A DNA stretch of 64,000 nucleotides, from contig OZ024927.1 of assembly GCA_964017235.1 (NCBI GenBank), positions 23,331,160 to 23,395,159 on the forward strand. The letters are read 5' to 3'. The notes beneath the pieces are model-generated. The model was not told where the DNA came from and searched no databases. It saw nothing but the letters and a program-made list of their open reading frames with translations. Source of the stretch: Sabellastarte sp. h YS-2021. Taxonomy: Eukaryota; Annelida; Polychaeta; Sabellida; Sabellidae. Below are positions 3,573 to 61,707 of this stretch, piece after piece. Within the stretch, counting starts at the first letter, position 1, and every line of letters starts with the position of its first letter. The translations under genes were made by a program, and so were the position numbers.

Positions 3573-5010
3573 AAGCGTCCCTGAAAGTTAAAAATGCTTT
3601 GTGGTTTTAATAAGCATGCTGTAAAGCTAAGAATGCACAAAGCTACACCGTATGATTTCCCAATACCTCTTAATACATTCTGATGCTATAAAAGCAACAA
3701 TAAAGGAGATATAAGGCAAAAACTCCAAAGCAGCTATTTATGACCCCAGTTTGGCCCATAAGGGGTCGGGGGTAAAACTGACCAGCTATTTAGACTCTCC
3801 ACATATGCTTTCCCAATACCTCTTAATACATTCTGAAGCTATAAAAGCAACGAAAAAGGAGATATAAGGCAAAAACTCCAAAGCAACTATTTTATGACCC
3901 CAGTTTGACCCATAAAGAGGGGTCGGGGATAAAACTGACCAGCTATTTAGATTCTCCACATATGCCTTCCCAATACCTCTTAATACATTCTGAAGCTATA
4001 AAAGCAACAATAAAGGAGATATAAGGCAAAAACTCCAAAGCAGCTATTTATGACCCCAGTTTGGCCCATAAGGGGGGTCGGGGGTAAAACTGACCGGCTA
4101 TTTAGACTCTCCACATATGATTTCCCAATACCTCTTAATACATTCTGAAGTTATAAAAGCAACAATAAAGGAGATATAAGGCAAAAACTCAAAATCAGCT
4201 ATTTTGTGACCCCAGTTTGACCCATAAGGGGGGGTAAAACTGACTGGCGATTTAGACTCTCCACATATGCTTTCCAAATACCTCTTAATACATTCTGAAG
4301 GTATAAAAGCAACAATAAAGGAGATATAAGGCAAAACTCCAAAGCAACTATTTTATGACCCCAGTTTGACCCATAAGGGCGGGGGGGGAGATCGGGGCAT
4401 AAAACTGACCGACTATTTAGATTCTCCACATATGCTTTCCCAATACCTCTTAATACATTGTGAAGCTATAAAAGCAACGATAAAGGAGATATAAGACAAA
4501 AACTCCAAAGCAGCTATTTATGACCCCAGTTTGGCCCATAAGGAGGGGTCGGGGGGTAAAACTGACCAGCTATTTAGATTCTCCACATACGGTTTCCTAT
4601 TACCTCCCAGTACATTTTATGGCTCTAAATACAATACTTAAGAAGATAATAGGGGGGTTGACCTAAATTTAAGGCTTTCAGATTGGAAGGTGTCAGAAAA
4701 TCCCTCATAAATGAGACATTTTTCAAGGGATTGCTCCCAAAATCTAATCAGCTCGCGTTTTCGATAGTATGAACACGTGTGTCAAATTATAAGGCTGTGT
4801 AGCAAGTAGTTTTTCCTGAACTGCGATCATGTGACCTTCATAAAGGTCAAATTTAAGCATGCAGAAAAATTTTCCCACGCCTAAGGTATATAACTGCCAA
4901 ATATGGTTTGAAACCTTCTAATAATAAGGGAGATATTCAAGGGAGACCATAATGCGGCGGCGGCGAGGAAACTGAGGCGAAAACAAATAAGCGCCCTTTC
5001 AGGGACGCTT
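3573..5010. mobile_element. Putative TIR element containing a 155-bp minisatellite
   Basis: A perfect 15-bp inverted repeat, aagcgtccctgaaag (3573-3587) and its complement (4996-5010), brackets six tandem repeat copies. No convincing target duplication was seen and there is no transposase ORF. The superfamily is undetermined. The element ends 44 bp from the last dynein exon in the window. Confidence 0.6.
3651..4650. repeat. Minisatellite, six ~155-bp units plus a degenerate end
   Basis: Unit starts are at 3651, 3804, 3961, 4116, 4266 and 4431, each beginning tatg(a/c)tttcccaatacctc; a decayed seventh begins near 4588. Units are 150-165 bp and contain aaaggagatataaggc and a G-run of variable length (ggggtcggggg). 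Stop-free stretches on the minus strand here are artefacts of the repeat. Confidence 0.95.
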
Positions 5011-14100: not shown

Positions 14101-17100
14101 GCAAAATTGAACCCCAGAAAATTTGTGATGGGAAAAGTTCCTGATGGACATTGTTCTGATGAGCATAGTACCTGATGGGCTTTCTTCATGGATTCTTACA
14201 GCCCAAACTGGAGGTCGAACAGCATGTAAAATCACTCTTTCCTCGGTCAAATGGGATGCCTAGGATCAATTGTCTGCTGAATATTTGGGTGCTAATATTG
14301 CCAATTTTATGCATATATATTGTGCTATCACCTTAGTTGTTTGATAAATTCATTTCATAATAAATTCAATTTGTGTCGATGTATAATTTACTCAAAGAAA
14401 CCCAGTTGGGTGGACATGAAATAAGCTTAAATAAAAAGATTTTGTTCCAGTTATATTTTACTGTGAAAAGCACTTTTAAAACTGCTGCTGTTTTTACCGA
14501 AATGAAAAGTCACCTCAGTGGAAAGAATATACATAAATCTAGCAATAGTTCTTTTAATTATCCACACAAAACAAGCACACCATTTGTGCTAAAATAATTC
14601 TGCACCTCAGACATATCAAATGCACAATTATTCATCAAAATAGCCAAATATGTACAAGCATGCCACTATCTGAAAATCTTACTTGAAAAAGACATGTAGT
14701 ACTGACTCTAGAAATACCCACAGGTGGATGTGAATACTCTACCATTTGAACACAAGTGGGAGGAATTAAAAATGTAGGCCATGGTTTCAAAAATGCCTTC
14801 ATTTTTCCCACCATGTTTGATGTCATGATCCATCATACACTTCATTTTATATAGTTACAGATTATACACCTAAATTACATTTGAAGTACATAACATATAC
14901 CATTTCTTCCATAAATATACAAACCATTTTCAGCAAGTACAACTCAAAGTACATATTTGTTTAAGTGAAAAATCTTCCATTGAGCGCTCGTTCTGTGCAA
15001 TGTTTCAATTTCTAAGAAAACATTCAAAACTCTAAAAGTTTTTTTCTGTTTTCTAACATTCTCAAAAATCTGCATTTGTTGGCGAAGAAAATGTATGATC
15101 CCACAAAAAAAAAATGCATTCCAGAAACAACATCAATATGTTCACCTCAAACATACATAATAATGCACACATGTAACTCAGGTCACCCATATAATGTACA
15201 CATACAAGTCAAGTGAGTTATAAGGGCACACCATACCTTCTGTTGCTGTTTCTGCTGGTGTATGAGATGTGCCCACTGAGGGATCTCTTCCGACATCTTC
15301 AGGATCATCTGCACACACTTGTTCATCATATTCTGAATCTCCTCCAGACTTGGCTACAGGTAGAACACAATAATATCACTTGGAAGAAATTATGCCCCAT
15401 TCATACTGTTAATTTATTTGGTGTTTTATGTCAAAGCACATTTGTTCGAACGACAAAAAAAAACTCTGATCACAAATGAGAAAGGCAAGTGTGTTACCAC
15501 AAACCCATGGCCCACTTTGGCACCACAAACAATTAATAGATTATTATTGGCTAGTGTTAAGGGCAGTTTACTTAGTTGCTATATCCATGGCCTTTATTTA
15601 ATACTGTTCTCTTTGGTGTTGTTGGGGCCACGGTGGCAGAGTGATAACACTCTTGCCTCCCACCTCTGCGGCCGGGGTTCGATCCCCGTCATGGCCGCAA
15701 GTGGGAAAGCTGGTAGTTGCTTACCGTTGGTCGGCAGTTTACAGTACAGAACCCTAGCGAACTATATGTACTGGTTTCCTCTGCCCTTCCAACTACCCGT
15801 CGTGATATGACCTGTACAGTGTTGAAATCGACGTAAAAAAAAACCCAAATAAACAAATAAACTTTGGTGTTGTCAGTTTGTAATGCTGAATAACCACAGT
15901 TTTCAGTTACTCTTTTCAATCATTTGTATTGCAATGCTTTGAATATGTTTACAGCAGAACCGAGTAAGAATCCGCAGCAATATCCGATAGTTCAATACTT
16001 CTATTTTACAGGCAAGTTAAAATGAAGGAGATAAATCTCTACTGAAAAGGCCCTCAAAAGACCATATATTTATTATTTATACTTAATCTGGGATTTGAAC
16101 TAGTTAAAATAGTTTGACTCTCCACAAAGAACAGATTAACAGGTAATATTCTGGATTTTCCTGTAATGTCATAAACTTTCAGACCTGCATGACAATGTTA
16201 GGTATGGCGAGCACAATGTCTGCCTTAAACAGTGGCTGTTTCTTGTCATCTGCTTCCCCGGGCTTGGCGTAACGTGTGGACATCTGCACACGTCTCTTGA
16301 TGCCATCCAAAGTGAGACGGGTACCTAGAGGATTCAATAACACGCCCAAGTAGAGGAAAATAAAAAGTATTAATGCTTGATTTATGAACTGATTTAAGGA
16401 GTAGCCGGTCCTACTTATAACTGTCCATTTTAACTAATGCACATGTTTTCCAATTAAATTTGACCAGTCTAATCATAGTATCTGTTTACATCTTACATTT
16501 GACCAATCAATCTATTAATTACATACACCTGACCAATTTATTTGTTTAATACTTAAATTTCAGTCATCTGGCTTTTTATCGATCATTATTGACCAGTTTA
16601 TGTGTTTATGACTTACATTTGACCAGTTTACATGTTTAGTAAGTAAGTAAGTAAGAAACACTTATATAGCGCCAAATTTGATGTAAACATCCTCTATGAC
16701 TTGTATTTGACCAGTTCACGTGCTCATAAATTACATTTGACCAGTTTATGTGTTGATGACTTATATTTGACCTGTTTATGACTTTTATGTGTTTGTGACT
16801 TATATTTGACCAATTTATGTGTTTAGGACTTACACTGGACCAGTTTATGACTTACATTTGACCAGGGCCTCAGTGTTTCTCTGTGTGAATGCATTCAGCA
16901 CTGTAGTGTATGCATCTGGCTCTACAGGCTGGCTGGGACTTTCCTGAATTGGGATCATCTTGGCCTGTTCTTCTGGAGTGAGTGGGTCCTTCAACATCTG
17001 CACCAAATCATCCACAGAGGACTCGACCAACTGACTGGACCTAAAACAAGAACTTTCAGGTCCAGATATCTCTGAAGCTAATTTATGTTCGGTTTACATA

Positions 17101-41100: not shown

Positions 41101-44100
41101 CTGCTCTTCCAGTAGTTGAGTTCAGCTGATGGCCCAATGTTGTCAGCTTCTCTGCGGATCTGTTCACTCTCCACTAGTACCTGCTCAATCTGCTTGGACC
41201 AGGTCATGATCAGCTCTTCCAGCTTCTCCATCAGTTCACTGTTGTTGGCTGAAGTTTTCAAATTTAGAAATAATTAGCCCTAGAGTCTAATGAAATGTAA
41301 TTTAATCAGGTTTATAACACTTAATCTGTGTTATACCACATGATATCTTCAGGTGCAGTAGATGCTCGTTTATCCCAACATGCAGGGAGACAAAGGTGTA
41401 GTTCACATAATATCAGGTTCATGAAAGAGAATCGAGATACAGAAGCATTGGGAAACATAAACATGGAAGAGTGGAAAAGAGTTAAATTAAATGAAAACTG
41501 AATATTTGGAATTTAAAACTTGAAAAAAAAACAGATTATAAACTATACATCAGCATTTTAAGTCAATGGATATGGAACTATGGAAAAAGGACTTTCATGT
41601 TACATTTTGCTCTTTAGCTCAACAGTTAAAACATTCTATTCTTTATTTATTCTGTGCATATTAGAGTGGCCTCTGGATCATCTCTAGTCACTTCTTTGCT
41701 TTCTTTGCATCTCCTTCCCTATCTTAATTTGCCCGAGAATATTAACCCTTACCTGCAACCTGGTAGTCAGATGGTCCTTTCATCTGGTCCAGCTGGTGTC
41801 CATAGTCTGACTCCTTCAGATGAACATGCCCCTCCATGTTTTGTCTGGCTCCAGTCAGGATGTTCACAAATTTTTCTAACTGCTCCATGAACTCAGAGAT
41901 ACGGTTATTTTGGCCATCCAGTTCAGGACCCCAGCTCTGAAGTACAAGCAAACAAACTGTTCTATCAAATGGGCATTAGTCTATTGTGGGTAAAGGTTTG
42001 TTAAGATTTGCCAAGCTTCCCATAAATTTGGTTATAGACACATAAAAGCACCATGCTTTTGTTTACATGCTATGTTTTGTATTACTTTTATGCACACTTA
42101 GATTGAATAAACAGTACTTTATCATAGATCCTGAGGCATAACTTTTTGTTAATGTATGCAATAAGCTAGAAAATAAATTTAACACTTCATGTTAAGGCAT
42201 TGTTTTAGTGAGCTGCCTACTTTATTTTATTTCATTAATATGAACTTCACTTTGTAACTAACAATCTATTTTCTGCTGTTTGGATGTAACACAGAAGTAC
42301 TAATTGGTGAAGGGAAAAATATACTTGCAATGTAAACTGGAAATATAATGATCACTTCAGTTGGGTTTGGCAGTAATAGCTAGAATTTTAAAAAGGGAAA
42401 ATGATGCAAGTTTATGAGAATTCCTGAAAGTGGTTGAAGGCATATACATGCTAAAATATGGATTTCTTTCATGAAAAAAATTACAGATAATCTCCTTAAT
42501 TTCCTTCTACTTCTGACAACAAAATCATTATCTTAGATAGTTTGATTATTTGACTATTTTCATTTGAAAGGTTTCCAACTGTAGTAAGTAAGTAAGTAAG
42601 TAAGAAACACTTATATAGCGCCAACTTTGATGTAAACATCCTCTAAGGCGCTGATGTGCAAAAAGGGATAGTCCAGTTCCAGAAAGATGTCTGTTTCCAT
42701 ATTAGCGTCCGGTCGGGGAGATAGGCTATGGTGAAGGATAAGCCAATCTAAAAAGGTATGTTTTCAACTGTTTCCTTAAACCAGAAATGCTTTCTATGGT
42801 TCTGATGGCTTGAGGAAGCTTGTTCCACTCTGTGGGAGCCCCTGCTATGAAACTGCGTAGCCCTGAGCGTTTATTTGGTTTAGATGAGGAAATTGATAGG
42901 CGATTGCCCCGTGTGAGATCACTCCGCCTAATTAGAGCGCAGAGAGATGGAGGTTGGCTCAAATGTATTGCTTTATAAATGAGGAGATTATATTTGAACA
43001 GTATACGGTAATGAATGGGGAGCCAGTGTAGTTTGTGCAGGAAGGGTGTAACATGACAGTATTTATTTAGCTTGCACACCGTCCGACATAAGGCATTTTT
43101 GTGTTGTAAAGCAGTGAGTTACAGTAATCCAGACGACTGCTTACCAAGGCATTTGCCCCCTTTACAGCTGTTTCATGATTTAAGTACCTGCAGACCCTTC
43201 GTAGTTCCCGGAGATGGTAGTAACTTATGCGACATAGATTAGCCACGTGTCTTTGCATTGAATTTTCAGCATCGAGGATGACACCAAGGTTTTTTACCGA
43301 TTCAGCTGGTTCCATGGTGTTGCCAAGCAAACTCACTGGGAAAGATGACTTCAGGGAACTTCTAATTTGATCATCACCAATCACTATGAATTCTGTCTTG
43401 TCAGGATTTAATTTAAGCTTATTATTTCCCATCCAAGCCTGGACCGCCTCAAGGCAATTTGTTAATTCAGTGATACTGGAATCGAAGTTCCTAGAGTCGA
43501 GTTCCAAGTAAATTTGTGTGTCATCTGCATATAAGTGGTGGGTGACATTGAATTTAGATATGACTGAACTGAGAGGGGTTGTGTATAGGGTAAAAAGGAG
43601 TGGCCCTAGAACTGAGCCCTGGGGAACCCCGTAAGGGAGTTGAAAAGCATCTGAAAGATGTCCATCTATTTTGATGCGCTGCTTGCGTGAGTTGAGGTAT
43701 GACTGGACCCACTTAAGCACTACCCCACCAATGCCATACCAGTGCTGAAGGCAGTTGAATAGGATTGAGTGGTCTATTGTATCGAAAGCTGCAGATAAGT
43801 CCAAAAGGACTAATCCAACAGCTGCACCCTTGTCCATTGATGTGGCAATGTCATTTTGTATTTTGAGCAACGCCGTTTCAGTTGAGTGAAAAGCTCTATA
43901 TGCGGACTGGTTTTCGTTAGATATACCCTCGTGAGCAATATGCTCATTTATCTGCTTAGCCACAGCTTTCTCTATGAGTTTGGAGATGTAGCTGAGGTTG
44001 GACACTGGTCGATAATTCTTGAGAATATTCTTGTCAAGACCAGCTTTTTTCAACAAGGGTGTAACATGTGCAGTCTTAAAGCAGGAAGGGAAACTGCCCT

Positions 44101-60725: not shown

Positions 60726-61707
60726 AATAGCATTAGAGATGCCCGTACCCCACAGCCTGGGGAAATAGTTTTCAACACCATGAGATATAGAAGTAGTGAA
60801 ACAGTACAAAGATCGGATACTTTCAGAGCAGTGTCAGTTATATTAAGGTCAAAATGATGTCTAAGTAGAGAAAATAACATCTAAGAGAAGGAAAATGTAT
60901 GTAAAGATAAAGTATTAAAACAAGACAATTCAGTAGCAAGATGACCGCATTAATCAGTAAACTGAAAATTATGATGCACACCTACAACCCCTAACCAATG
61001 TCCCTACCAAGTATAAACTTCCTACACCTTACAGTTTCCGAGATATAGCCCGGATAAGATTTTATAGGTCAAGGTCACTACAGCAAGGTCAAAGGTCAAA
61101 TCAAGGTCACATCATGACGTTGCACACCTACACCACCTAACCAATGTCCCTACCAAGTAGCAACTTCCTACACCTTACGGTTTCCGAGATATAGCCCGGA
61201 CAAGATTTTATAGGTCAAGGTCACTACGGCAAGGTCAAACCATGACGTTGCACACCTACACCCCCTATCCAATGTCCCTACCAAGTATCAACTTCCTACA
61301 CCTTATGGTTTCCGAGATATAGCCCAGACAAGATTTTATAGGTCAAGGTCACTACGGCAAGGCTAAAAGTCAAATCAAGGTCACACCATGACGTTGCACA
61401 TGTACACCCCCTAACCAATGTCCCTACCAAGTATCAACTTCCTACACCTTACAGTTTCTGAGATATAGCCCGAACAAGATTTTCAAACTCAAGGTCACTG
61501 CGGCAAGGTCAAATCAAGGTCACATCATGACGTTGCACACCTACACCCCCTAACCAATGTCCCTACCAAGTATCAACTTCCTACACCTCACGGTTTCTGA
61601 GATACAGCCTGGACAAACTTTTTCCTGTCGCCCGCCCACCCACCCATCTGGACACTATGGGTGAAAACAATACCACAACAGCCCTTAAGGGCTGTGGGGT
61701 AAAAACT
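60726..61707. mobile_element. TIR element with internal tandem repeats, copy 2
   Basis: Sister of 6691-7457. Near the ends, taccccacagcc (60746-60757) and ggctgtggggta (61690-61701) form a perfect 12-bp inverted repeat. The interior has five units of 128-146 bp (anchor cctacacc at 61021, 61167, 61295, 61441 and 61580), each with ccaatgtccctaccaagta and gagatatagcc. Copy 1 has only about two units, so repeat number differs between copies. Confidence 0.82.

Follow-up and report, generated by a model that had tools for sequence, protein, structure and literature searches.

The window analysed here, a stretch of 64,000 nucleotides from the polychaete Sabellastarte sp. h YS-2021 (contig OZ024927.1), carries on its minus strand a gene that, judging by the protein it encodes, appears to be a DNAH5-like axonemal dynein heavy chain. 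Two neighbouring exons of this gene taken together matched PDB chain 8j07_n0, dynein axonemal heavy chain 5, over residues 957-1023 (E 7.9e-07), and the downstream one, at 16185..16324, also matches both dynein axonemal heavy chain 5 and the paralogue, a second dynein gene on C2. A Pfam search with the 108 residues of both exons returned no family, and a PDB search with 15 kb of the window, stops being read as X, gave no match. The upstream exon (17040-16856) is, by a hand count, about the 19th recognisable coding exon, versus 'exon 21' in an earlier sequence-only reading of this DNA; its edge reads CTGGTCAAAT/GTAAGTCATAAAC, where the slash marks the exon-intron boundary. The intron that separates it from the next exon (16324-16185) is 531 nt long and is mostly occupied by a degenerate tandem array. 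The window has two further tandem arrays, at 3651-4606 and 60975-61616, whose units measure about 128-157 bp, and a long open frame on the minus strand (44344-43070) that looks, by eye only, reverse transcriptase-like. The features of the locus are listed below; scores in bits were obtained with a matrix derived from 136 donors in the two dynein genes.

16856..17040, minus strand: dynein heavy-chain exon, recognised by its reading frame; its last 10 nt are part of the repeat unit.
16856..16865, minus strand: exonic portion of the first unit, CTGGTCAAAT, with 10/10 identity to the consensus of ten intronic units.
16854..16855, minus strand: true donor GT, at the same position and phase in the paralogue; at 9.5 bits it outscores 84/136 donors of both genes.
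16428..16855, minus strand: intronic array of ten clear degenerate units, at steps of 22-39 nt and one step of 60 nt, with an inserted element inside.
16832..16833, minus strand: decoy donor, cagt/GTAAGTCC, 6.6 bits, above 24/136 real donors.
16733..16734, minus strand: decoy donor, aaat/GTAATTTA, 6.4 bits, above 23/136 real donors.
16635..16696, minus strand: dispersed element within the array, shortened and with (TTAC)n as its tail; places elsewhere are 88-100% identical.
16615..16616, minus strand: decoy donor, a perfect match to the true one along 23 nt and of the same score (9.5 bits).
16525..16526, minus strand: weak decoy donor, aggt/GTATGTAA, 3.5 bits, above 3/136 real donors.
16495..16496, minus strand: decoy donor, aaat/GTAAGATG, 8.5 bits, above 56/136 real donors.
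16185..16324, minus strand: next dynein exon, reading (T)GT ACC CGT CTC and onwards, recognised by its reading frame, with the acceptor ctctag/gtaccc.

Twelve unit cores can be placed in register, namely that of the exon edge, those of ten clear intronic units and that of a weak unit at 16427, which matches the exon edge at 12/23 positions; a further degenerate stretch lies at 16565. When a consensus was built from the ten clear intronic units, with the exon and the weak twelfth unit excluded, it equalled the exon edge at 23/23 positions, 10/10 on the exonic side and 13/13 on the intronic side, which confirms the proposal of the sequence-only reading that the end of this dynein exon is the first unit of the intronic repeat array. 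The exonic share of the unit is 10 nt long: the preceding ten exonic positions match the consensus at 3/10, and homology farther upstream in the exon did not rise above background in a gapped comparison, in which 784/2084 exon 30-mers scored equally well. Successive units are separated by steps of 22, 30, 39, 30, 30, 88 (with the inserted element), 30, 60, 30, 39 and 39 nt, the first intronic unit thus lying 22 nt after the exon unit in an array that runs head-to-tail beside the boundary. The spacer ACACATAAA of the units is absent from the exon, so that a further rearrangement is needed.

The repeat is confined to this place as far as the searches reach. The pattern GGTCAAATGTAAGTCAT, allowing up to three mismatches, occurs eight times in the 64-kb window, at the exon edge and in seven intronic copies, all of them on the minus strand and all at this locus, versus 0.41 occurrences expected, and none of 100 shuffles reached eight. 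When 19 donors of the gene were each compared with the next 600 nt, at most six mismatches being allowed, seven copies of the exon's own edge were found here and none at the other 18, the score of one of them (exon 34236) being void since its string was off by one base. A genome search with both array halves found no locus besides this one; very common words were skipped in it, so that the result is not absolute. Two findings that would have spoken against the sequence-only reading, intronic units unrelated to the exon edge and a minisatellite widespread away from this exon, thus did not come true.

The element inside the array (16635-16696) has at least 39 further matching places at 88-100% identity, a figure obtained by scoring 40 of 883 candidates. 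An exact-string scan provided seven further copies, and the five readable ones continue beyond 16696 into shared sequence that is absent here. The array units that flank the element would be older than its insertion. In the window itself, a second copy of the (TTAC)n-tailed element is found on the gene strand near 42.6 kb (42608-42621) and extends farther than the copy in the array.

The direction in which the array grew is indicated by the paralogue. It has the same exon at 70% identity, with the same QRNTEALVK residues and the same intron position and phase, and is without the 30-nt array. Because residues and intron position are shared and that array is missing there, the exon edge predates the array; the 23/23 match and the single locus in the genome likewise support the view, already put forward from the sequence, that the array grew outward from the exon edge. 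The base at -8 is G in the window gene and in 10/10 clear intronic units, and T in the paralogue, and the A that the window gene has at -2 is found in 7/10 intronic units. On the simplest reading, the array would have arisen after the two genes split, the ancestral base at -8 being possibly either of the two.

Several of the intronic units resemble working donors. GTAAG is kept in three of them (16833, 16616 and 16496), as the sequence-only reading had expected of at least three, and a weaker GT in two others (16734 and 16526); GT is thus kept in 5/10 clear intronic units, and the +1 G is lost in the other 5/10. The further claim that these decoys match the true donor holds for one that is identical to it and, more loosely, for three others that score above at least 23/136 real donors, but not for the 5/10 clear units without the +1 G. 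Predicted pairing against the start of U1 amounts to -8.3 at 16833, -5.5 at 16526 and -5.4 both at 16616 and at the true donor. This order differs from that of the matrix scores, and the decoys are therefore not clearly inferior. Reading past the end of the exon gives LVK-C-K-S-stop (TGT AAG TCA TAA), just as had been predicted, with the stop ending 11 bases into the intron, so that use of any decoy donor would truncate the frame. The suggestion that the array might affect recursive splicing, on the other hand, found no support. A recursive splice site would combine a pyrimidine tract with an AG directly before GT within the intron; among the listed sites, AG directly precedes GT only at 16771 and 16528, and by eye neither of the two is preceded by a pyrimidine tract.

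An exon-by-exon alignment of the two dynein genes allowed a comparison of donor edges with the intronic background. It gave 88 chained matches, 12 of which looked transposon-like or doubtful by eye and were discarded (one of these, at index 12717, is possibly a true exon). Of the 76 that were kept, 7 yielded no shared donor, and the alignment thus provided 69 shared donors, or 138 donors. Edge copies were found at three other donors, those of the same exon in the paralogue and of one later exon in each gene. For the later donor of the window gene (G000:C1:23270677), the edge recurs about 83 nt downstream (score 41), with the copied donor destroyed. At the later donor of the paralogue (G000:C2:139219904), the copy lies 102 nt downstream (score 40) and its donor reaches 7.6 bits versus 6.9 for the real one, with read-through again hitting a stop. 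Under a rule that required a score of at least 34, a lag above 60 and a spanned junction, 3/138 donors have a copy versus 25/864 random intron positions; eight such positions were taken in each intron that measured 400 nt or more, and none lay closer than 100 nt to an exon end. These 25 hits fall in 17/161 one-kb bins and are not independent because eight positions come from each intron; with the random positions clustered in this way, the copy rates are rough. The window array stands outside the 3/138 because its best alignment starts at +2, and it is counted instead by the consensus and ungapped comparisons; a Fisher test of 4/138 versus 25/864 gave P 1.0. The ungapped comparison found at least 16/22 matches for 7/138 donors versus 49/518 intronic GT sites, and at least 19/22 for 2/138 versus 26/518. 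Edges compared with the introns after other donors gave 3 spanning matches in 5417, and these are not chance, since the target stretch includes, by coordinates, the paralogous exon edge. For acceptor edges (63 pairs), the best boundary-spanning match scores 39, the control being one for donors only. In these two genes, then, donor edges are copied at a rate no higher than that of random intron positions, and the notion that a donor is special as a source of copies is not supported; such edges have no advantage and are perhaps even copied more rarely than positions elsewhere in the intron. It is conceivable, and we put it forward with considerable doubt, that boundary copies in this animal arise at the rate usual for tandem duplication in introns, in which case a few per cent of the donors in long genes would have been copied in this manner, sometimes into a better donor, and would form a standing stock of latent donors, with loss of the +1 G as a main way of silencing them.

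Ordinary tandem duplication accounts for the origin of the array. A short tandem duplication would have covered 10 nt at the end of the exon and about a dozen at the start of the intron, and slippage or unequal exchange would then have raised the unit to ten or more copies within the intron, in a growth whose time and order we infer. The intronic copies would drift freely, with the exon edge constrained by two things, the protein (ALVK) and the donor, and the array as such would be a side effect of tandem duplication, which is common in introns of both genes. Splicing probably relies on the first donor, the later ones being probably mostly silent, as each of these would bring in the stop that is completed 11 bases beyond the exon. 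Against such silence speaks the predicted U1 pairing, which is stronger at 16833 than at the true donor and about equal to it at 16526. Taken as a whole, an edge-spanning tandem duplication that was amplified in the intron, with the first donor probably in use, is in our judgement very probably the correct account.

It might be argued that selection has been at work on the intronic units, the +1 G being lost more than other positions since a working decoy harms the transcript. The +1 column does have 5/10 mismatches, with P 0.016 by per-unit permutation and P 0.032 by a binomial test, or P 0.018 when the binomial is taken over 16 core columns. However, the +7 column likewise has five mismatches, the effect weakens to P 0.14 when +1 and +2 are combined, and it stands at P 0.06-0.09 if two adjacent ATAAGT units share one loss. 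The +1 column was moreover chosen for its meaning, from ten units in all, and the true donor still has one exact copy. We therefore regard selective removal of decoys as unlikely.

A different history is suggested by the paralogue, in which the exon edge has a duplication of its own. There, a stretch of 12 exonic and 71 intronic bases is repeated a single time at a lag of 96 nt, scoring 66 versus a maximum of 30 in 500 shuffles; the copy of the same exon edge thus lies 96 nt into the intron of that donor (G000:C2:139250141), and its GT is lost. The paralogue can accordingly not be taken as free of any edge copy: the 30-nt array is missing, yet one copy of longer period is present. If placement were random, the chance that the same exon should be copied in both genes would be about 0.06, a hint of either shared origin or a local hotspot. 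The edge duplication could then have preceded the separation of the two dynein genes, with amplification later in one of them, the more so as the starting points of the copies in the exon, -10 and -12, nearly coincide. Yet the lag of 96 nt differs from the 22-39 nt seen here, the intronic similarity between the genes is, by eye, limited to the donor, and the array has the window gene's own base at -8. For these reasons, a duplication before the split seems to us quite unlikely, and growth of the array from the exon edge after the split is preferred.

A still stronger proposal would make the array functional: its row of donor-like sites would bind U1 and modulate the choice of donor, the retention of the intron or premature polyadenylation, and the output of dynein would follow copy number. 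It can point to the decoy that equals the true donor, to the three more that outscore at least 23/136 real donors, and to the site at 16833, whose predicted U1 pairing beats that of the true donor. There is also a possible precedent: Turri, Cuin and Porter reportedly described in 1995 a minisatellite that gives multiple splice donors in a human interferon-induced transcript, and this minisatellite is said to be linked to IFI6/6-16. As far as that title tells, the two arrays are alike in carrying repeated splice donors, and differ in that the repeat sites of the interferon-induced transcript serve as donors, whereas the window copies are candidate donors whose use would add a stop. The proposal is opposed by the loss of the +1 G in 5/10 intronic units, by the inserted element that breaks the array, by the in-frame stop past which all decoys lead, and by a paralogue that is without the 30-nt array. 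In addition, RT-PCR and Adh3 data from amphioxus suggest, in the words of the authors of the globin paper, no interference of comparable arrays with regular splicing. A regulatory role for the array is thus highly improbable. The idea that the exon edge and the intronic repeat resemble each other by chance can be dismissed almost entirely: the exonic part is indeed short (10 nt) and tandem repeats are common in these introns, but the pattern count (eight copies, 0.41 expected, no shuffle in 100 reaching eight), the 23/23 consensus match and the comparison of 19 donors, of which only this one is copied (seven versus none at the other 18, one string off by one), already refute it.

Arrays of this kind are already known from another animal group. 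To judge from its sequence, the one described here appears to be a case of the amphioxus-type 'mirage', with which it shares three of the five listed features: a unit that straddles a real boundary, with 10 exonic and 13 intronic positions (the boundary being conserved in the paralogue), a head-to-tail arrangement beside that boundary, and AG/GT splice signals in some of the copies (5/10 units keep GT). In cephalochordates, mirages have been described at Adh3, at the globins BflGb6 and BflGb9, at troponin C and at PGBD5; the passages devoted to them report length instability, with somatic instability at Adh3, and state that regular splicing is not disturbed (PMC3087553, PMC3902484). According to the same passages, they too are minisatellite-like tandem copies of an exon-intron boundary, of which many but not all keep the splice signals. 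Their units are 10-72 bp (Adh3) or about 150-160 bp (globins) long, and their instability and splicing have been studied, whereas the window array is known from the sequence of a single assembly. In human genes located in segmental duplications, half of the internal tandem repeats detected lie in coding sequence and most have expanded in primates, and a route to new introns has been proposed from them (PMC2812944). In the sections of that paper that deal with them, such repeats resemble the present one in having units of about 30 bp on average, some at an exon-intron boundary, and differ from it in that the window copies lie in an intron and no sign of a new one is found. Among the papers listed for mirages and for bivalve minisatellites (10 of 44 in the latter case) there was no mollusc case, which is not proof of absence from print.

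The array in this dynein gene extends boundary-spanning minisatellites to an animal other than the cephalochordates, in which mirages were described. It also comes with a first rough rate, from two genes, according to which copies of donor edges are no commoner than copies of random intron positions. If this holds in general, edge copies would be raw material for shifted or new introns, and the array itself is a natural test of how the spliceosome chooses the first among near-equal donors.
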